A stretch of 25,108 nucleotides of DNA, from NCBI GenBank assembly GCA_024655865.1, contig JANLFM010000019.1, positions 1-25,108 of the forward strand, read 5' to 3'. The position numbers and the translations under genes are program-made. Positions 4,476 to 17,332 of the stretch are shown in pieces. The notes beneath the pieces are model-generated. The model saw only the letters and a program-made list of their open reading frames with translations. It was not told where the DNA came from and did no database searches. This stretch comes from Caldisericota bacterium. Lineage in GTDB: Bacteria; Caldisericota; JANLFM01. Numbering within the stretch: position 1 is the first letter of the stretch; each line of letters begins with the position of its first letter.

Positions 4476-7352
4476 ATGAAAATTACAAAGAAGGTAATTA
4501 GCCTTGGGCTGGCGCTTGCGTTGCTGTTATCAATGGCGGCCATGCCGGTTTCCAAAGTTACACCAGCCATGGCAAATGGGGTAGGGAGTTTTGTGTCCTT
4601 TAATGTCTCCCCAAGCAATGTAGCACCCGGGGGGGAAGTCACATTCAGCTTCTCCTTTTTGCCTAATGTTTATGTTCCCACGGGCTACATTATTGTGGAG
4701 TCCATCCCGTCAGGAGTTCTGACAAACCCCATTCCCAATCCCTCGTATTTTACAAATGTACCCACCGGAAATCCCTGCACAGGTACAATTAAGTACACCG
4801 TTACTGCAACAAGCGGGACTATTACGGCCTACGGAATATTCTACATAATCACGGAGACAGACACTTATTTTGTCCCCTCAAATACTGTGGCCATCAATGT
4901 GGGGCAAACTCTATCTGTAAGCAAAGCAACCACAGCCACTACCGTAGTTTCCGGAAGTATGTTTACCTACACGGTCACCGTAAGCAATAATTCGGGGAGC
5001 ACTGCAACCCAGGTCAGGGTAACAGATTTTCTTGATTCCAACCTTGAGTATGTGAGCGGAACCGCATCAGTTGTGAGTACTACTCCCCTGATTTTCAGTC
5101 TGCCCGATCTTATTAGTGGTGCTTCGTCCTCGTTCACCTTCTGGGTGAGAGCCAAAACGGTAACTTCAACTAAAATCGTAACAAACGTCGTTACCGCCTC
5201 AGCTACGGGATTCGTCACTTCTGCTCCTGCAGCGGCAAGCCCCGTAACCATAATCCCGGCCACCACCGCTTTCACCAAAGAGGTAAACAAGACCCAAGCC
5301 GCTCCTGGCGATACTTTAACCTATACCATCAAGTTCACAAACCCAACCGGCTCCCCAACAATATACAATGCCAAAATAATTGACTATATCCCTGCTTACA
5401 CGGGCTATTTATCTGCACAAACTAACCTGGGAACAATTCTTCCCCCCACAACCGGCCAGAACTATGTTACCTGGAACATAGGCACCATTCCTCCTAACTT
5501 TACTTTTACCGCCATTTTGAACGTTCAAATATTCACCACTGTCCCCTGGAACACTAATATTAACAATTCTGCATATTTCTACGAGGGAACCAGTATCACG
5601 CATACTGCTCAGGCCCCCACGGTGACTGTCCTTCCCGCTCCTTTCTCCATCGAGAAAACCGCTTCTCCTACGGTCATCCTGCCTGGCCAGCAAGTCACCT
5701 TCTCCATAAGCTTTAAAAACACCTCCTCTTACACGGCAACAGGCGTAACGGTTGTGGACTATCTTGATCCCAAGTTCACCATTTCTGGAGTAGGGAGCAC
5801 GTATCCTTACACTATTTCTGGAAATCAAATAATCTGGACCATAGGGAATTTAGCTCCGGGGACAGCCACGATTACTGTTTCCTTCGTGGCCACTGCAAAT
5901 TTATATATTACTCCTGGAACCTCGATCCCGAACAAGGCATCTGTGAAAGGAACAGGGACGGCAGAAGTCTCAACCACTATTTACGTTTTGGTGGGACTTC
6001 CCTCCGCTTTGACTCTCCAAAAGACCGTCAATTCTCAAAACATCCTACCTGGAGCGGATGCCCTGTTTACGGTCACCGTTCAGAACCCCACCACCAACCC
6101 CACCATTCCTACCTTGACCATCACTGACACCCTCCCTGCGGAGCTCACCTTCAAGGGTGCCTCTCAAGGATACACCAGGACGGATAGCGTGGTCACCTGG
6201 ACGATTTCTAATCTCGCTCCCGGAGCAACGGGCACTGTAACCCTGGCTGCCACTGTCATTCCCACGGTTCCCGTGGGAAGCACGGTCACCAACACGGCGG
6301 TCCTGAAGGTTGGAGGCCTGGAGCCGGTAAGGGCTTCCGCTTCCTTCCAGGTGGGTCAGGCCCCTGCCTCTCCGCTCAAAGTAGCTAAACTGGCTACCGC
6401 CGATTCCGTAAAGGGCGGAGAGTACATCACCTACATCATCATTTACGCCAACACCGGAAACACCCTCCTCCCCGGAGCTAAGATCGAGGAGTATGCGCCC
6501 GCGAACACCACCTTCCTGAATGGGAACCCTTCCCCTGTAGTGGGACCTGAGGCGGGTAAATTAACCTGGAATCTGGGCGACCTCCCGCCCGGGGCTAACG
6601 GCACAATCATCGCCCAGTTCAGCGTAGCCTCCACTGTTTCCGGCGGGACTGTGATTGAGAATGTAGCTAAGGGCAAGGTTTCCGGTTATCAGGACAGCCT
6701 CTCGGCGACAGTCTACGTCACCGTAGGGCAGGTTCAGCACTCTGCTTTCATCCAGGGTTACCCTGATGGCACCTTCCGTCCGGAGAAGCCCATAACCAGA
6801 GCGGAAATTGCCGCCATCCTCACCAGGATCATGGGGCTCAATCCCCAGACTGCACCCAATCCCAACTTTGCTGACGTGCAATCCACCCACTGGGCCTTTG
6901 GGTACATCTCCGCAGTGGTGAATGCCGGAATTATGCAGGGTTATCCCGATCGCACTTTCCGTCCCGACCAATCCATCACCAGGGCCGAGCTGGCAACAGT
7001 GATGGTGAGAGCTCGTGGGCTCTTCCCCCTGATCGTTGCTCCTCCTACTTTCCCTGACATCGCCGGACACTGGGCTGCAGGCTATATTGAAGCTGCGCAG
7101 AGGGCAATGTTCATTACCGGATATCCTTCTGGCGACTTCCGGCCTGATCAATCCATTACCCGGGCCGAAACAGTAACCCTGATTGACCGCTCTTACGGAC
7201 GCGGTCCACTAAGTGGTCCTAATGTCTCCCAGACCTTCCCGGATGTACCGGTTGCCCACTGGGCATTCGCCTGGATCGCCGAGGCGGCTCAAAGCCACTA
7301 CGGCGTGCACTCCGTTGAGGGGAAGGAAATTCTGATCAACTACCTCCCATAA
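4476..7352 (+). CDS. Secreted DUF11-repeat protein with C-terminal SLH (S-layer homology) anchor
   Basis: This 958-residue protein is predicted to be exported and held at the cell envelope. A signal peptide covers about residues 1-33 (basic MKITKK, hydrophobic core, AMA cleavage site). An N-terminal Ig-like segment follows (about 36-140). Then come five DUF11-type beta-sandwich repeats beginning near residues 145, 265, 389, 512 and 633, each opening with a pattern like KTxxxxxxxPGxxxTYTIxxxN and containing VxDxLP and WxIGxLxPG motifs. Three SLH modules start near 753, 808 and 868, each with GYPDxxFRPxxxITRAE, which bind secondary cell-wall polymers. A partial fourth SLH-like stretch, FPDVPVAHWAFAWI, lies at the end. 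Start ATG 4476 has GGAGGTG nine bases upstream. It is the only rightward gene here. DUF11 repeats are structural or adhesive; no enzyme motif is seen. It may be an S-layer or surface fibre protein; which is not known. Confidence 0.93.
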   Translation: MKITKKVISLGLALALLLSMAAMPVSKVTPAMANGVGSFVSFNVSPSNVAPGGEVTFSFSFLPNVYVPTGYIIVESIPSGVLTNPIPNPSYFTNVPTGNPCTGTIKYTVTATSGTITAYGIFYIITETDTYFVPSNTVAINVGQTLSVSKATTATTVVSGSMFTYTVTVSNNSGSTATQVRVTDFLDSNLEYVSGTASVVSTTPLIFSLPDLISGASSSFTFWVRAKTVTSTKIVTNVVTASATGFVTSAPAAASPVTIIPATTAFTKEVNKTQAAPGDTLTYTIKFTNPTGSPTIYNAKIIDYIPAYTGYLSAQTNLGTILPPTTGQNYVTWNIGTIPPNFTFTAILNVQIFTTVPWNTNINNSAYFYEGTSITHTAQAPTVTVLPAPFSIEKTASPTVILPGQQVTFSISFKNTSSYTATGVTVVDYLDPKFTISGVGSTYPYTISGNQIIWTIGNLAPGTATITVSFVATANLYITPGTSIPNKASVKGTGTAEVSTTIYVLVGLPSALTLQKTVNSQNILPGADALFTVTVQNPTTNPTIPTLTITDTLPAELTFKGASQGYTRTDSVVTWTISNLAPGATGTVTLAATVIPTVPVGSTVTNTAVLKVGGLEPVRASASFQVGQAPASPLKVAKLATADSVKGGEYITYIIIYANTGNTLLPGAKIEEYAPANTTFLNGNPSPVVGPEAGKLTWNLGDLPPGANGTIIAQFSVASTVSGGTVIENVAKGKVSGYQDSLSATVYVTVGQVQHSAFIQGYPDGTFRPEKPITRAEIAAILTRIMGLNPQTAPNPNFADVQSTHWAFGYISAVVNAGIMQGYPDRTFRPDQSITRAELATVMVRARGLFPLIVAPPTFPDIAGHWAAGYIEAAQRAMFITGYPSGDFRPDQSITRAETVTLIDRSYGRGPLSGPNVSQTFPDVPVAHWAFAWIAEAAQSHYGVHSVEGKEILINYLP
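4909..6723 (+). repeat. Five tandem protein-level DUF11-type repeats inside the S-layer-like gene
   Basis: Five units of roughly 120 codons begin near 4909, 5271, 5643, 6011 and 6375. They share the order Lys-Thr/Ala start, PGxxxT(Y/F)T, xxNPT/NTS, DxLxP and WxI(G/S)xLxPG. The nucleotide sequences have diverged, so the repeats are old rather than a recent amplification. Confidence 0.75.
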
Positions 7353-7428: not shown

Positions 7429-8070
7429 TTAAAAAAGAAAAAGATTCAGAAAAAAGGAAAGCAGGGGATCAAGGATCCTCCAGAGAACTCCGGTTCCCAG
7501 AAGGGCAAAAAGTACAAAAGTTCCCAGAAGATTCACCTGAGGATCGTAAATCATCCTCCCCAAAGCTGAGGGGAAAAGCGCACCCAGCACCTTGGAGCCA
7601 TCAAGGGGCGGAAGGGGAATCAAATTAAAAAAGGCAAGGAGCAGATTCAGGGAGACCGTGAAATAAAGAATCTGATAAAGCAGGATGCCGCCTACATTGA
7701 ACACGTGAAAAAGGCGCCAGAGAAGGGAAGCAAGAACCGCCAGACTGAGATTGGTGACGATCCCCGAGAGGCTCACGAGAATGGTGTCCCTTCTCTGGTG
7801 TCTCAGGCGATAGAAATTCACGGGAACGGGCTTGGCCCACCCGATCAGGAAGTTGCTTCCTAAAAGAATGAGCATCAAAGGAAGGATAATTGTTCCCAGA
7901 AGGTCGATGTGGGGAATAGGATTCAAAGTTATGCGCCCCGCTAATCTGGCAGTGGGATCCCCCAATTTTTCCGCCGTCCATCCATGGGCTACCTCGTGCA
8001 GGATGATGCTGAAAAAGAGGATGAAAAGGGAGATGATGAAATATATAGGCTGGGAAAGGATGTTAGGCAT
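7429..8070 (-). CDS. Site-2-protease-like membrane zinc metallopeptidase (M50 family)
   Basis: This 213-residue intramembrane metalloprotease belongs to the small bacterial M50B group. The zinc-binding HEVAH motif is at residues 25-29 within the first membrane region, and the second zinc/catalytic region NLIPLPPLDGSKVL lies near 168-181, supplying the Asp ligand. Several hydrophobic spans cover most of the chain. No PDZ domain is present, unlike RseP, and the length fits the short YwhC-type proteins. The start is ATG at 8070 with GAGG seven bases upstream; it overlaps the pyrimidine-phosphorylase gene by eight bases, so it is probably translationally coupled as the last gene of the operon, just before the terminator. 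Its substrate is unknown. Confidence 0.88.
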   Translation of the reverse strand: MPNILSQPIYFIISLFILFFSIILHEVAHGWTAEKLGDPTARLAGRITLNPIPHIDLLGTIILPLMLILLGSNFLIGWAKPVPVNFYRLRHQRRDTILVSLSGIVTNLSLAVLASLLWRLFHVFNVGGILLYQILYFTVSLNLLLAFFNLIPLPPLDGSKVLGALFPSALGRMIYDPQVNLLGTFVLFALLGTGVLWRILDPLLSFFLNLFLF

Positions 8071-9373
8071 TGGAGATCCTCGCCAGGGGTTTAAATTTGC
8101 GTTCTACGGGTTCCTCAGAGAAGGAAAAGGCCTTTTCCACGAGATCCTGAGCCTCCTCGAGTCTCTCTCGGTTGTTCACGTATAGAATTGCCAGGGGTTC
8201 CTCCAGCGTAACCTGATCTCCCGTTTTCTTGCGCAGTCCGATTCCCACCCCGTAGTCGATGGGATCGCCCTTTTTCTCCCTGCCTCCTCCTAAAACCATG
8301 GCCGCCTTCCCTATTTTGAAAGCGTCGATGGTTTTAATGTATCCTTCCCTTTTGGCCGAGACTATCCAGCGAAGATTAGCCTGAGGTAAACGCCAGGGAT
8401 CTGCGATCACGCGCTCATCTCCGCCTTGAGCACTGATCATCTGCTGAAACTTCTTAAGAGCAGCTCCACCTAAAAGGACCTCTCTGGCTCTTTCCTTTCC
8501 TTCTTCTGGTGATTTTTCTTTACCCGAGAGGAAGAGCAGTTCCCCACAGAGCTCCAAAACGGCTTCGGTGAAATCCCGGGGGCCCTTTCCCTTTAACGTT
8601 TCAATTGCCTCCTTCACTTCCAGGGCGTTTCCCACCGCTTGTCCCAGCGGTTCCTCCATAGGAGTCACCAGGCAGGTGACCTTCCTCCCCATCCTCCCTC
8701 CGATTTCTACCATTACCCGGGAAAGTTCCTTTGCCTGTTTCAGAGTTTTCATGAAAGCGCCCCTGCCGCATTTGACATCGATCAGGATGCTTGAGGCACC
8801 AGCAGCGATTTTCTTAGACATCACTGAGCTGGCAATCAAGGGAATGCTCTCTACAGTCCCGGTGACATCTCGAAGAGCATAGAGCTTCCCGTCTGCAGGC
8901 ACGAGCTCGGGGGTTTGTGCTACGATGGCGCACCCGATTTCCCTTACCTGAGCAAGCAGTTCCTCTAAGGAAAGTGCGGTGCGAAAACCTGGTATGGACT
9001 CCAATTTATCTATCGTCCCCCCGGTATGCCCCAGCCCCCGCCCGGACATTTTAGCGATGAAGAGACCACAAGCAGCAAGGAGAGGCACCAGGGCCAAAGA
9101 AACCTTGTCCCCTACCCCACCGGTGGAATGTTTGTCTATAGTTGGTCCCGGAAGGAAAGAAAGATCCAGTTGCTTCCCGGATTCCACCATGCTTCTGGTT
9201 AAGGCCACAGTCTCCTCTAAATTCATCCCTCGAATGAGAGTGGCCATCAGGAAGCTCGCCATCTGATAATCAGGGATCTCCCCCTGAACGTATCCCTTGA
9301 TCAGAAAATCAATTTCCTCATCCTTTAGGGCCTTGCCATCCCTTTTCTTTATAATCAGGTCAACAGCCCTCAT
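8063..9373 (-). CDS. pdp: Pyrimidine-nucleoside (thymidine/uridine) phosphorylase
   Basis: This 436-residue enzyme splits thymidine, deoxyuridine or uridine with phosphate, giving the base and (deoxy)ribose 1-phosphate in pyrimidine salvage. The N-terminal helical domain ([21 protein letters not shown]) and the glycosyltransferase-family-3 signature are clear. The signature includes DKHSTGGVGDKVSL near residues 80-93, the phosphate/nucleoside site SGRGLGHTGGT with KLESIPGF, and DVKCGRGAF near 199-207. The C-terminal alpha/beta domain ends with AxxIGxAAMxLGGGRxxKxDxIDxxVG-like sequence, typical of Firmicutes Pdp and E. coli DeoA. Thymidine-only (deoA) versus broad (pdp) specificity is not settled; pdp is the more usual Firmicutes assignment. 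Start ATG 9373 has AAGGAGGT upstream. It overlaps the purine phosphorylase gene by 14 bases. Confidence 0.9.
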   Translation of the reverse strand: MRAVDLIIKKRDGKALKDEEIDFLIKGYVQGEIPDYQMASFLMATLIRGMNLEETVALTRSMVESGKQLDLSFLPGPTIDKHSTGGVGDKVSLALVPLLAACGLFIAKMSGRGLGHTGGTIDKLESIPGFRTALSLEELLAQVREIGCAIVAQTPELVPADGKLYALRDVTGTVESIPLIASSVMSKKIAAGASSILIDVKCGRGAFMKTLKQAKELSRVMVEIGGRMGRKVTCLVTPMEEPLGQAVGNALEVKEAIETLKGKGPRDFTEAVLELCGELLFLSGKEKSPEEGKERAREVLLGGAALKKFQQMISAQGGDERVIADPWRLPQANLRWIVSAKREGYIKTIDAFKIGKAAMVLGGGREKKGDPIDYGVGIGLRKKTGDQVTLEEPLAILYVNNRERLEEAQDLVEKAFSFSEEPVERKFKPLARISNA

Positions 9374-12253: not shown

Positions 12254-13663
12254 TTATGCGCTACGGGCTCGAAGGCGCACTTCTTCGGGGTTGAAAAAGA
12301 AGAAGGGATATTCCCTGAAAGCCAGAACCTCTTCCCTTTGTTCCAGGCGCCGGACCTGGCCTTCCAAAAGCTGGATATCCCCCTCCAGGAAATTTAAAAG
12401 AGCGCGATTTATCCTCTGCAATTCCTGGTAGCCATCCCTATCCAATTTCTTTTCCTTCAGCTCTTCCTTCCTTAAAATGAGCTCGCGCTCTTTTTGCGCG
12501 ACCTCGGAAGAAAGGTAGCTCTCCGGGTTTTTCCGCATTTTCCTGATGAGTTCCCCGAGCCTTTTTCTTTCCTTAAAGTCAAATCCGGGGAAGAAAAGGG
12601 TGATGGTAGCCTTAGCAAAAAGTGGGGGTTCCACCTGGAAAAAATCCCGGATCATAAAATCCACTGCTTCCTCATAGTCCCCTCCTCCCAAACCATGAAG
12701 GAAGAGGTCGCACGCCATAAGGCGCAGGAACATGGTAAGCGTTGCCGCTCTGGGACGGATTTTATAGCTCTCCAGGGCATCCTCTAACTTTCCCAGAACT
12801 CTTTCCTCTGCTTTCAAGTTGCTTCGGGAATCAAGGAAAAGGGGAAGCCTCTCGCCGTCATTGAGATACCAGAAGGGGAGTTCGACCTCCCTCTCCGAGT
12901 TCCTTAAATCAGGAAAAGGAAGATTTTCTGAGCGCGCTTTCCTCTCCTTTCTCCAGCGGGCATTAGCGGCGTTGTAAATTCGAGCGAAAGTATCCGCGTT
13001 CCGGGCAATGTGCAGGAAAAAGAAGCGAAATTCCTCTTTTAAAATCTCAGAAAGGGGGAACTCGGGATAGTCTGGCTCCCCTTCAAAGTACCTCCTCAAG
13101 CGGGAGTAGAATGCGGAAAAGGGCTCCTCCTTCCAGGAGAAGCGCTCAATTTTCGAAAAATTCTCTTTGGCAGAGATTGCCTCAGGAAAGTTCAGGGAGC
13201 GCTCTATCTCCTTTGTAAACCTTTCCCAATCCTCCTTCCTGGGAGAGGAAAGGGACTCATATACCTTATTCTCCAAAGTTAAAGCTATCTCTTTAGACAC
13301 AAGCTCCCCCTGGAATTCAAAAGGAACCCGTACAGTTAATCCCCAATTGAGGTCCGAATCGAGGACGAAAGCTGCAGAGCTTATCCCCAACTCCTCCCTG
13401 GCCCGCTCTAAAAGGAAAAAGCGAAACCAGATTCCCGGGTGCACGAAGTGCGGTTGGTGCCCGGTAAGAAGGAGGGGATTACCTGGCTGAATTCCGTAAA
13501 GGGCAAGCCTCTTGCGCAGATTTTCTCTTACTTTCAAGAAGGGAATCCCCGCCAGGTCAAAGCGGTAGCTATTTATAAGCTGGAAATTTCCCTTTATGAG
13601 CCGGGACCATTCTTGAAAGGGCGGGGTGATGAGGCTTTCCCCGTTCTCCTTTGGTAGGTTCAT
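12254..13663 (-). CDS. Conserved protein distantly resembling BshC (bacillithiol cysteine-adding enzyme)
   Basis: This 469-residue protein has no certain function. Several features recall BshC. LLLTGHQPHFVHPGIW (65-79) compares with the BshC VTGQQ-GL--GPLY region. About 30 residues later, AAFVLDSD (97-104) compares with PVFWxAxEDHD. KIRPRAATL (301-309) and HGLGGGDY (323-330) compare with RP...GGPGE..Y, then QVEPP and TITLFFP (353-359). A C-terminal coiled coil spans about 385-450. The length is slightly below usual BshC (about 540). The frame opens at 13750, but I chose ATG at 13663: it forms an ATGA overlap with the deacetylase stop, giving translational coupling. Lys/Glu-rich composition. 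The deacetylase and glycosyltransferase neighbours support a role with an amino-sugar conjugate. Homology to BshC is my inference from motif spacing; it may be a separate uncharacterised family. Confidence 0.6.
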   Translation of the reverse strand: MNLPKENGESLITPPFQEWSRLIKGNFQLINSYRFDLAGIPFLKVRENLRKRLALYGIQPGNPLLLTGHQPHFVHPGIWFRFFLLERAREELGISSAAFVLDSDLNWGLTVRVPFEFQGELVSKEIALTLENKVYESLSSPRKEDWERFTKEIERSLNFPEAISAKENFSKIERFSWKEEPFSAFYSRLRRYFEGEPDYPEFPLSEILKEEFRFFFLHIARNADTFARIYNAANARWRKERKARSENLPFPDLRNSEREVELPFWYLNDGERLPLFLDSRSNLKAEERVLGKLEDALESYKIRPRAATLTMFLRLMACDLFLHGLGGGDYEEAVDFMIRDFFQVEPPLFAKATITLFFPGFDFKERKRLGELIRKMRKNPESYLSSEVAQKERELILRKEELKEKKLDRDGYQELQRINRALLNFLEGDIQLLEGQVRRLEQREEVLAFREYPFFFFNPEEVRLRARSA

Positions 13664-14343
13664 AAGATGGCGCTGATTTCCTTCAGGGAAAGGCACTCCC
13701 TGGAGGCGAACGGTTCGCCATAGTCTAAATGCGCCCGGGAACCCCACCACCTGGCAGTAATTTTGAGGTCTTCGAGGATCCTCAAATTGCCCCGGATCTC
13801 GTTAAACTGAGATTTATAGCAAGAGATAGCCCGGATTTTTACCTCGATGAACTGACTGATATCGAAAACGAAGGCTGGCTTCACCAGAAGCCGGAAATGG
13901 GAGGAGAAAAAGTAGAACAGGCGTCTGGGATAAAAGGGTTCCCCGGACATCTCCGTCTTGGTGAGCTTGGCGTAAAATCGAGCTGCCTCAGAGAGCTGGG
14001 AAGCGGCTCGATGGTCGGGGTGGGCATCCGTCCAGTAGTGCAAAAAGATAACGTCCGGCCTGACCTCCCTGATCACCTCCGCCACTTTCAGGCGATTCTC
14101 GATGGAATCCAGCAGGTACCTGTTGGGAAGGTCCAGGGTAATGCGGCGGTCAACCCCCAAAACTTTTGCTGCCTCCTGGCTTTCCTGAAGGCGTATCTCC
14201 CGGGAACCGGTGGGAGTTGGTTCTCCATCGGTTAAATCAAGAATCGTAACCTCGTGCCCCTTACCCTTCAACGAGGCGATCGTGCCTCCCATTCCGATTT
14301 CCACGTCATCGGGATGAGCCCCGATTGTTAGGATTCGTGCCAA
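13660..14343 (-). CDS. BshB1/PIG-L-type zinc de-N-acetylase
   Basis: This 227-residue protein belongs to the LmbE/PIG-L deacetylases, which remove N-acetyl groups from GlcNAc conjugates such as GlcNAc-malate in bacillithiol synthesis. The metal site is intact: GAHPDD (9-13; His10, Asp13 with catalytic Asp12) and AHPDH (107-111; His111 as third ligand). VEIGMGGTIASLKGKGHEV and the YWTDAHPDHRAAS stretch closely resemble BshB1 of Bacillus. The start is TTG at 14343 with AAGGAG eight bases upstream, overlapping the glycosyltransferase gene by 16 bases; its stop overlaps the next ATG. A role in a bacillithiol-like pathway is plausible, but other amino-sugar substrates (lipid-linked or mycothiol-like) cannot be excluded. 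Confidence 0.88.
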   Translation of the reverse strand: MARILTIGAHPDDVEIGMGGTIASLKGKGHEVTILDLTDGEPTPTGSREIRLQESQEAAKVLGVDRRITLDLPNRYLLDSIENRLKVAEVIREVRPDVIFLHYWTDAHPDHRAASQLSEAARFYAKLTKTEMSGEPFYPRRLFYFFSSHFRLLVKPAFVFDISQFIEVKIRAISCYKSQFNEIRGNLRILEDLKITARWWGSRAHLDYGEPFASRECLSLKEISAIL

Positions 14344-15035
14344 TTTTCAAGCTCCTTTTTGATGATTTCCAGATAATATTTTCTCCTCTCCCCGGAATCC
14401 TTAAGCTTCCCGGGAAAGGTCCGGGAATAGTCCATATAAATTAAAGGGACGGGGATCTCTTTAATTCTCAGCCCCGCTCTTTTTGCCTGAATCCAGAATT
14501 GCACGGGCAGCCCGTAGCCCGCTTCGGTGAGGTTTAGTTTGCAAAGAGAGGGAACGAAATATGCTTTGAAGCCGCAAAAGGAGTCCGTGAGCTTGTACCC
14601 TGTAATCTCATTAATAATTTTTGTGATCTCCATGTTGAGCTGATAGCGGTCCTGGGGTGGAACCGTTTCTGGTTTTTTAAGGTACCTGGAGCCAGAAACA
14701 ACGTCCCACCCCTTTATTTCCTCCCTGAACTCAGGGATCAATGCGGGCTCGTGCTGGGCATCGCAATCCATGGTAATGCACACTTCGTATCCATTTTCTC
14801 GGGCGAAGTGAAAGCCATCAAGCAAAGCTTTTCCATAGCCTAAATTTATGTGGTGCCTGATGATCTTTAAATTGCCATAGGAACCTAAAATTAGAGGAGT
14901 GCGATCCACAGAACCGTCATCCACTACCAGGACATCGCAATCGGAAGCCCATTGAAAGACTCCGCTTAAGACCTGGTCAATGGTCTTCTCCTCGTTGTAA
15001 CAGGGTAGGACGATCAGGGTCTTATAACTCCAGAT
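14328..15035 (-). CDS. Family 2 glycosyltransferase (DPM1-like), non-canonical start
   Basis: The reading frame encodes TLIVLPCYNEEKTI, VLVVDDGSVDRT, INLGYGKALLDGF, MDCDAQHEP, VVSGSRY and a Y..R.F.....D region, which is the full GT-A fold order of dolichol-phosphate-mannose-synthase-like GT2 enzymes that move a nucleotide-activated sugar. The only ATG/GTG/TTG start (GTG at 14924) would delete the first strand with PCYNEE, which binds the nucleotide, so it is probably wrong. The frame opens after a TAA at 15044-15042. GGGAGG at 15050-15045 sits nine bases before an ATC codon at 15035, which I use as the tentative start (235 residues); CTG at 15017 is another option. No C-terminal membrane segment is present. 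It overlaps the MBL gene end and the deacetylase start. A start-site sequencing error is possible. Confidence 0.8.
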   Translation of the reverse strand: MWSYKTLIVLPCYNEEKTIDQVLSGVFQWASDCDVLVVDDGSVDRTPLILGSYGNLKIIRHHINLGYGKALLDGFHFARENGYEVCITMDCDAQHEPALIPEFREEIKGWDVVSGSRYLKKPETVPPQDRYQLNMEITKIINEITGYKLTDSFCGFKAYFVPSLCKLNLTEAGYGLPVQFWIQAKRAGLRIKEIPVPLIYMDYSRTFPGKLKDSGERRKYYLEIIKKELENWHES

Positions 15036-15645
15036 AAGTCTTTACCTCCCTTACTGTGGTCAAAGGGCCGTGTCCCGGACAGATCACAGTCTCGGGAGGA
15101 AGGGACCAGATCATCTTCAAGGAAGAGCGCAGTTCCTCAGGCGACCCTCCAGGGAAATCCGTGCGCCCCACACCTTCCATGAAAACCACATCCCCGGAAA
15201 AGAGCAATCCGTGTCCCAGAAGCGCAAGGTGGCCAGGCGTATGTCCGGGAAGATGAATTAAGGAAAAGGACAAATTTCCCACCCTTAACTCATAAGGTGG
15301 ATGCAAAGCTTGTCCCAAATTATTAGGAACCTTCCCTCCCAGAAAGTGGAGAAAGTGCAAATTCGGCTTTTTGAAAAAAATTTCATCCTTCTCCGGATAA
15401 AATATGCGGGCTTCCGGAAAAAGTTCCTCTAACTCGGCAAGTCCTGCCCAGTGGTCGGCGTGACCGTGAGTAAGGAAAATCTGCATACTTTTAACGCCTT
15501 CCTCAAGCGCCTGGGAGATCGTCTCTCCATCCCCACCCGGGTCTATAATCAAGCACTGATCCCCGTCAAAAATGAGGTAGGAGTTTGTGGCATATGGCCC
15601 CACAGTCAATTTTTTAACCCAATCAGGCAAAAGAGGGGAATTCAA
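15022..15645 (-). CDS. MBL-fold metallohydrolase (glyoxalase II/YcbL-like)
   Basis: This 207-residue cytoplasmic hydrolase has the metallo-beta-lactamase fold with a binuclear metal site. Motif 1 THGHADH is at residues 59-65, with LIHLPGHTPGHLAL giving the next His ligand, LLFSGDVVF the bridging Asp, and ICPGHGPLT the last His. The VGPYATNSYLIF and VGRTDFPGGS stretches place it with YcbL-like glyoxalase II relatives, which hydrolyse thioesters such as hydroxyacylglutathione or other thiol adducts. The frame is open up to 15798, deep inside the phosphatase gene. I chose TTG at 15645, because GAAGGAGGT lies nine bases upstream and the length then fits the family. If the neighbouring genes make a thiol, a thiol-conjugate substrate is conceivable; this is speculation. 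Confidence 0.87.
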   Translation of the reverse strand: MNSPLLPDWVKKLTVGPYATNSYLIFDGDQCLIIDPGGDGETISQALEEGVKSMQIFLTHGHADHWAGLAELEELFPEARIFYPEKDEIFFKKPNLHFLHFLGGKVPNNLGQALHPPYELRVGNLSFSLIHLPGHTPGHLALLGHGLLFSGDVVFMEGVGRTDFPGGSPEELRSSLKMIWSLPPETVICPGHGPLTTVREVKTYLEL

Positions 15646-15661
15646 CTTACAAAGACCTCCT

Positions 15662-17332
15662 TCAGGGAGATGTAGTAAATAAGCTCCAGGGAATGCGCCA
15701 GACATACCCTTCCAGGCTATCGCTGGAACCTCCAGCAACGTAAAGGGCCTCAGCACTGGCACAAAGCCCCTTAGGATCACGAAAAGCTGGATCCTCAAGC
15801 TGGCTGGAGGTGATTTTGAACTTCAAATTCAAATCTGCATCAAAGACCAGAATCTGGTTTGTGGACATCTCGGGAACGAGCACGTCCCCGGAGTAAGTCA
15901 AAGCCAGATCTGAGGGGCCATCGTAAGTGCCCACGGAAGTAGCACCGGTGGTGGCGGTGGCCACGATATTCCCTCTGTAGTCTAACTTGATTACCTCGTG
16001 TCGGTTTTTCAGGCTCACGTAGAGGTTTCCATTCTCATCCACAGCCAGACCATTGGGCTTTTCGATTACTGCCGAACCATCCTCGTTCAGTCCGGAGTAC
16101 TCGTCCAGGTACTGGAAATCCCGGTTGAAAATTACAACCCTGTCATTGCCCCGATCGGCAACGTAAAAATAACGGCCATCGTATTCAATGGCCCGGGGAG
16201 AGCTCAAGGTTCCGTGATCCCCCATTTCGGGAACGAGCATCACAGGGTTCCCCTTATCGGGGTCAAGATAGAAGAACTTCCCCGCAGCATCAACGATAAA
16301 AATGTAGCGGCTGGTAGCTATCATGTCGCACGGTGCCTCAGCCGCAGGCAAATATCCGTTGTATCGGGAATCCTCCTGTCCGTCAGCGAACTTGCGCACT
16401 CTCTTTTCCTCTTTATCCAGAACGTAGAGGTTCTTATCCCAGAATAATACGGCGTAAGGATCCCGAAGGTCCTCGATGAACCTGAAGCGCGCAGAGTAGC
16501 TCGAAGTGACGGTCTCAGTGGGTGAGGGTGGAGGGGTTCCGCGATGCCAGAATATCAAAAAGGAGAGGAGAAAGCCTACGGCCAGGAGACCAACCAGGGA
16601 TAAAGCGATCTTCCACCAGTAATTACTGGGCCGGGCTTCCTCGAGTAAATCTATGGCCAAGGCCGTGATATTGTCCTCCCCACCTGCCCTTTTGGCGAGG
16701 GAAATTAAACGATCCGCAGCCGCCTGGGAAGAAACGCTCCACTGGAGCACTTCCCCAATTTCCGTCATGCGCACCCTATCCGCTAATCCATCAGTGGCAA
16801 AAAGCAAACTGTCTCCAGGAGCCAGCTTAACTTCAAAAACCTCCGGGGTAGGCACTTCAGTCTCGCTTGTGATTGTCTCCACCTGCTCCGGAACCCCTGA
16901 TACTAATCTCTTGAGTTCGCCGCTTCTTAAATGGAAAATAGCGCAGGAACCCAGAATCGAGTAGTAAAGACGATATCCAGAAATTACAGCACAGGCCAGG
17001 GAAACTGTAATCCCTTTCCAGTCCTCGTGCTTTGAGAGCTCCCTTAACCTTTCGTACCCTTCCTGAATGGCCTTCTTCAGCTCTATCAGGAAGGATTCGT
17101 GCTCCTGATTGAACAAGGGCTCGATCTTTTCCGCGATCGTGGAAAGAAGCAGGCGCGCAGCCGCCTCTCCCATCTTGTCCGTGCTGTCAGCGTCCGCTAC
17201 GGCATAAAGCCCGTTTAAGAGTGGGCCATCAGGGGAAACGCGATCCTCGAGGATGTAGTAAGCATCCTCGTTGGCGCTTCGCTTTCCAGGATCGGTTTGC
17301 ATCCCCAGGGTAACTAAAGGCGTCTGGTCCAT
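15662..17332 (-). CDS. PP2C-like phosphatase fused through one membrane helix to an NHL-type beta-propeller
   Basis: This 556-residue protein has two halves. Residues 1-230 are a PP2C-type Ser/Thr phosphatase: SANEDAY (19-25), VADADST (45-51) in place of VADGMGG, LLFATDGLADRV (176-187) and GGEDNITALAID (217-228). A single membrane helix spans about 241-262, followed by a Pro/Ser/Thr linker. Residues 280-556 carry repeated blades of the form GPSDLALTYSGDVLV, KPNGLAVDENGNLYVS and SPRAIEYDGRYFYVADRGNDRVVIF, typical of NHL/six-bladed propellers. The topology puts the phosphatase inside and the propeller outside, suggesting a ligand-sensing receptor phosphatase. The change in the DGMGG metal motif makes activity uncertain. 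It starts with ATG two bases after nadE; no partner kinase gene is in the window. Confidence 0.85.
   Translation of the reverse strand: MDQTPLVTLGMQTDPGKRSANEDAYYILEDRVSPDGPLLNGLYAVADADSTDKMGEAAARLLLSTIAEKIEPLFNQEHESFLIELKKAIQEGYERLRELSKHEDWKGITVSLACAVISGYRLYYSILGSCAIFHLRSGELKRLVSGVPEQVETITSETEVPTPEVFEVKLAPGDSLLFATDGLADRVRMTEIGEVLQWSVSSQAAADRLISLAKRAGGEDNITALAIDLLEEARPSNYWWKIALSLVGLLAVGFLLSFLIFWHRGTPPPSPTETVTSSYSARFRFIEDLRDPYAVLFWDKNLYVLDKEEKRVRKFADGQEDSRYNGYLPAAEAPCDMIATSRYIFIVDAAGKFFYLDPDKGNPVMLVPEMGDHGTLSSPRAIEYDGRYFYVADRGNDRVVIFNRDFQYLDEYSGLNEDGSAVIEKPNGLAVDENGNLYVSLKNRHEVIKLDYRGNIVATATTGATSVGTYDGPSDLALTYSGDVLVPEMSTNQILVFDADLNLKFKITSSQLEDPAFRDPKGLCASAEALYVAGGSSDSLEGYVWRIPWSLFTTSP

Follow-up and report, generated by a model that had tools for sequence, protein, structure and literature searches.

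The window, i.e., the whole 25,108-nucleotide stretch of Caldisericota DNA that was analysed, carries on its minus strand, read from 15035 to 12254, the three tightly overlapping genes described in the original prediction. They encode a DPM1-like GT2 glycosyltransferase of 235 aa (14328..15035), a PIG-L family N-deacetylase of the BshB1 type with a TTG start (13660..14343), and a protein of 469 aa (12254..13663), hereafter BshC-like, which is a candidate amino-acid (probably cysteine):glucosaminyl-conjugate ligase. The first two genes overlap by 16 bases and the last two by 4, and the GT2 gene also overlaps by 14 bases the preceding gene on the same strand, which encodes a glyoxalase II-like MBL-fold hydrolase of uncertain role (15022..15798). 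The GT2 gene has no ATG, GTG or TTG start; position 15035 is an ATC codon, a probable non-standard start, which follows, at a distance of eight bases, a good ribosome-binding site read from the sequence (gggaggt; 15036..15050 on the minus strand with its spacer). Since a relative of the same genus has TTG at this place, the ATC is likely to be either a start codon of a rare kind or the result of a local error in the sequence. Elsewhere in the window, the opposite strand encodes a surface protein of 958 aa that contains five DUF11 domains and three SLH domains (4476-7352) and is conserved in the equivalent position in the relative of the same genus (L006, 16191-19082). The translations between 17335 and 19225, read by eye, resemble an NAD+ synthetase split into amidohydrolase-like and synthetase genes, an arrangement also seen by eye in related genomes.

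The product of the first gene matches Pfam Glycos_transf_2 (89 bits, 4e-25, above the gathering score of 23.3), and the best PDB match of its profile is the DPM synthase 5mlz (3e-23), followed by ArnC, in agreement with its initial description as a DPM1-like enzyme distinct from the GT4 type of BshA. The BshA model (TIGR03999, cut-off 273.7 bits) is not reached by this protein, which is a GT2 and not a GT4, and the best GT4 elsewhere in the window's genome scores only 123 bits on it; neither canonical BshC (PF10079) nor BshA over the cut-off was found in this genome or in four others of its family. The GT2 shares its domain and the DxD and GSRY motifs with DPM1, ArnC and PpgS, but it forms a separate subfamily, paired with the BshC-like protein, and lies under every NCBIfam equivalog cut-off for polyprenyl-phosphate sugar transferases (PpgS, 86 of 370 bits; others lower), the highest of these models being polyprenyl-phospho-GalNAc synthase. 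Homologues of the GT2 in other phyla are about 44-50% identical to the window's protein, and those of the BshC-like protein 23-34%, the GT2 being the better conserved partner of the pair.

The deacetylase, the middle enzyme of the three, carries the AHPDD and HPDH motifs, matches Pfam PIG-L (3.5e-29) and exceeds the equivalog cut-off of thiol_BshB1 (TIGR04001; 201.9 vs 182.5 bits), a cut-off that is passed in all five genomes of the window's family and in the genome of an 'Armatimonadetes' MAG (G061). The MshB model gives only 34 of 224 bits, i.e., far under its cut-off.

The 469-aa protein has no match in Pfam, NCBIfam or the PDB sequences. PDB sequence searches with the single protein or with a five-member profile returned noise only, and PF10079 (Rossmann-like_BshC) matches none of the 27 members of the family, even at E 0.5. 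Matches of single members to NCBIfam CRISPR Cas6 and to Pfam MDMPI_N were put down to chance. AlphaFold2 models were built from an alignment of five sequences (pLDDT 83) and from one of 27 (pLDDT 95.1, pTM 0.89), and for both models BshC of Bacillus subtilis (4wbd) is the sole PDB match of Foldseek below 1e-3, with E values of 8e-12 and 4.8e-14, respectively. VIA-align extends the match to the whole length (Z 25.3-25.4 across 410-426 residues in the two models). The rmsd of 8.3 over 410 residues for the 27-sequence model is large, and an overall value of about 8 A suggests domain shifts between the model and BshC. The runner-up is class I LysRS (Z 17.6-19.2), and scores close to 10 are obtained by a mixture of class I synthetases, including MshC, CysRS and GlnRS (the latter around 10.6). 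The cysteine ligases MshC and CysRS do not stand clearly above other class I synthetases, and no cysteine-specific residue was found in the BshC-like protein.

Profile comparisons point the same way. The alignment of 27 BshC-like sequences matches that of 18 canonical planctomycete BshC over 401 columns (hhalign E 2e-5, probability 77%), and the five members of the window's family alone give E 2.4e-4 (probability 44%). In the register of the former alignment the motifs are co-linear: G68-x-Q70 falls on G90-x-Q92 of BshC, D102-x-D104 on D134-x-D136 and R272 on R294, and, provided that a two-residue alignment gap is accepted, R81 occupies the place of the invariant K105 of BshC, where most relatives have a lysine. 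The motifs TGHQ, LDSD, RPR and HGLGGGDY, from whose order a relation to BshC had been proposed, are all present, and the 27 homologues show little or no variation in GHQP, DxD, RPRA and GxGGxxY. The relation is supported by the predicted structure (Foldseek 4.8e-14, Z 25.4) as well as by the profile comparison, and the modelled protein has the BshC fold, with a Rossmann core and a helical coiled-coil region (long helices at 409-423 and 427-447). The two families nevertheless differ in length (469 vs about 540 aa), share only 11-13% sequence identity, and have distinct versions of two motifs: TGQQxGLxxGPLYxxYK of BshC becomes TGHQPxFxHPG, and GGPxEIAY becomes HGxGGxxY. Because none of the 27 members matches PF10079, the family is best called a sister of BshC and not a member of the curated family.

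The genetic organisation of the locus is conserved within the window's family and beyond it. All five genomes of the family keep the order MBL hydrolase, GT2, PIG-L, BshC-like; the last was absent from the 49 other genomes searched in the window's phylum. A scan of 84,980 genomes with a single sequence returned nothing, whereas an alignment-based scan of the genome contigs detected the family at 28 loci. Four of these belong to the window's family, one is in the 'Armatimonadetes' MAG, where the trio is complete, and the remaining 23 come almost entirely from genomes labelled Phycisphaerae or Planctomycetota. The GT2 gene lies directly upstream of the BshC-like gene at 27 of these loci, the exception being near a contig end. 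Of 43 genomes from the phylum to which the 'Armatimonadetes' MAG belongs, 42 encode the BshC-like protein, and the trio is intact in each of the 16 longer regions that we read. In Planctomycetota, most carriers have the GT2 and BshC-like genes as a pair, and they are adjacent in all 11 of the most divergent carriers read. The conservation of gene order in five genomes of one family and in a second phylum shows that the trio is not a chance association, and the genes co-occur in other phyla too. With the BshC-like predicted structure and the absence of canonical BshC and of BshA over the cut-off from the window's genome, each of the three checks set by the original prediction thus turned out in its favour. 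The trees of the two proteins are correlated (mirror tree, Spearman 0.49, 0 of 999 permutations, two genomes counted twice), which at least partly reflects shared species history. In several genomes of the phylum of the 'Armatimonadetes' MAG (e.g., L203 and L212), reading by eye placed heme-biosynthesis and queuosine-like genes upstream of the trio and cytochrome-c maturation or cytochrome b-c genes downstream, a neighbourhood that is possibly relevant to a redox function.

The MBL hydrolase does not follow these trends. It matches Pfam Lactamase_B (4e-30) and scores 86 bits on the GloB model, under the cut-off of 200.8. The suggestion that it acts on thioester adducts of the pathway is weakly favoured by its adjoining the trio in the five genomes of the window's family, but the gene is not beside the trio in the other lineages examined, and for this reason we rejected it as a core part of the module.

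The relation of the module to the known bacillithiol genes can be seen in their phylogenetic profiles across 294 genomes of Planctomycetota. The BshC-like protein is present in 54 of them and canonical BshC in 150, with no overlap. BshA, found in 143 genomes (142 over the cut-off and one split gene), never co-occurs with the BshC-like protein, nor with the GT2 subfamily, which is present in 53 genomes, 52 of which also encode BshC-like (unlinked cases included). Conversely, BshA and BshC occur together in 139 genomes. The deacetylase is common to both sets: BshB1 is present in 196 genomes. These include 52 of the 54 BshC-like carriers and 143 of the 150 carriers of canonical BshC; in total, it accompanies one or the other last enzyme in 195 of 204 genomes, against a single occurrence in the 90 genomes that have neither. 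Fisher tests give 3e-20 for the exclusion and 3e-54 for the pairing of GT2 with BshC-like, values that ignore shared ancestry and should not be read literally; the counts of exclusion and co-occurrence are likewise uncorrected for ancestry, and the carriers form clades. Targeted searches found no canonical BshC (PF10079) in 29 carrier genomes and no BshA above the cut-off in 12. Given the exclusion, the pairing and the BshB1 counts, the pattern is clean: two alternative pairs of first and last enzymes around one shared deacetylase step.

A single genome (G178) encodes canonical BshC and BshB1, no BshA, and a GT2 that scores 248 bits on the model of the module's GT2. This lower score, its different appearance and an unrelated neighbourhood indicate that it is probably a different GT2; the genome may possibly represent an intermediate state, but another GT2 is the more likely reading. 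As a possible functional link to bacillithiol, we also searched for its recycling enzyme, the bacillithiol-disulfide reductase YpdA (TIGR04018), which is missing from the five genomes of the window's family. This may weigh against a bacillithiol-type system, as may the rarity of YpdA-like proteins (over 260 bits) in BshC-like carriers (3 of 27), although they are likewise rare in canonical BshC carriers of the same phylum (4 of 20); none was found in 22 genomes with neither. In one BshC-like carrier (L194), the YpdA-like gene lies less than 2 kb from BshB1, on the opposite strand (4847-5875 and 7735-8439).

Taken together, these results suggest that the trio is probably an alternative route to a low-molecular-weight thiol of the bacillithiol type, with a different anomer and/or aglycone. 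The GT2, in place of the GT4 enzyme BshA, would transfer GlcNAc, probably from UDP-GlcNAc, onto a small acceptor (perhaps malate or another acid or phosphate). Since GT2 enzymes normally invert, the conjugate would probably be beta-linked instead of alpha-linked. The BshB1-type enzyme would then take off the acetyl group, a step supported by a family assignment above the equivalog cut-off. Finally, the BshC-like protein, a Rossmann enzyme of the class-I-synthetase type that has diverged deeply from BshC, would join an amino acid to the freed amine. By analogy with bacillithiol the product would be a thiol, and the amino acid would most probably be cysteine, since the module stands in for the bacillithiol genes. 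We give about equal weight for and against a broader proposal, in which this second, separately assembled route leads to an undescribed cysteinyl-beta-glucosaminide thiol with a new aglycone that would act as the principal redox buffer of the cytosol throughout one deep phylum, in some of the Planctomycetota and in a Caldisericota/Coprothermobacterota lineage.

The original prediction left a choice between a variant thiol and a modified glycolipid. In the latter case, the GT2 would make polyprenyl-phosphate-GlcNAc, the PIG-L enzyme would deacetylate it and the BshC-like protein would add an amino acid, resulting in the decoration of a glycolipid or of the envelope and in no soluble thiol. Such a pathway fits the closest relatives of known structure that the GT2 has, dolichol-phosphate mannose synthase and ArnC, which act on polyprenyl phosphates, its top NCBIfam model (polyprenyl-phospho-GalNAc synthase, under the cut-off) and the fact that PIG-L itself works on lipid-linked GlcNAc. 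Yet the deacetylase passes the BshB1 cut-off and BshB1 is almost limited to genomes with one or the other set, and the 235-aa GT2 has no obvious membrane segment when read by eye. Moreover, the decoration of the envelope is not expected to exclude bacillithiol, whereas GT2 with BshA and BshC-like with BshC are never found together in the 294 genomes. We consider this pathway unlikely; the fact that the module and the BshA and BshC genes exclude each other among Planctomycetota favours the variant thiol, although the chemistry of the latter is itself inferred.

The same exclusion, together with the sharing of BshB1, would also fit a simple functional replacement, in which the trio makes ordinary bacillithiol (Cys-GlcN-malate) with a non-homologous enzyme of the GT2 fold as GlcNAc-malate synthase and with a BshC that evolves fast. 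This is quite improbable, for bacillithiol is alpha-linked and a typical inverting GT2 yields the beta anomer, and the motifs of the BshC-like protein are strongly different (HGxGGxxY vs GGPxE), which suggests a different substrate. The link with thiols could even be coincidental if the BshC-like protein ligated another amino acid or acted on RNA or a cofactor like some paralogues of synthetases; its fold is indeed common to class I aminoacyl-tRNA synthetases (LysRS-I, Z 19; GlnRS, around 10.6). However, BshC scores far above these synthetases in the structural comparisons, and the gene of the BshC-like protein is found together with that of a BshB1-type deacetylase and takes the place of BshC in the phylogenetic profile, which makes such a function very improbable. 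A variant thiol of the bacillithiol type is the most probable reading.

A survey of thiol genes in 2018 listed Planctomycetes as being without a documented or predicted low-molecular-weight thiol (PMC6282198), and a survey of 2025 tallies bacillithiol organisms by their BshA/B/C orthologues (PMC12719100). Contrary to the former (PMC6282198), canonical BshC and BshA are each present in about half of the 294 Planctomycetota genomes, and a further 18% of them encode the parallel set. Our literature search found no paper describing the GT2/BshB1/BshC-like set, which appears to be an unrecognised route parallel to the known bacillithiol genes and to which standard annotation is blind. If it makes a thiol, then a new redox buffer awaits identification in several phyla.

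Known pathways offer two points of comparison. Mycothiol synthesis (MshA-MshB-MshC) likewise proceeds by sugar transfer, deacetylation and amino-acid ligation by an enzyme of the class-I-synthetase fold (MshC, Z around 10), but MshA is a GT4, the trio has no match to the MshC model and its deacetylase is far below the MshB cut-off. The bacillithiol set BshA-BshB1-BshC, which occurs in Bacillus, Bacteroidota, Deinococcota and Chlorobiota, shares with the trio the order of predicted chemistry, a BshB1-type deacetylase and a last enzyme of the BshC fold, and it fills the same phylogenetic niche in Planctomycetota. It differs in its first enzyme, the GT4 BshA instead of a DPM1-like GT2, and in its last, that of the trio being outside PF10079. 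If the trio does make a thiol, the evolution of bacillithiol would have involved the swapping of the first and last steps with conservation of the deacetylase.
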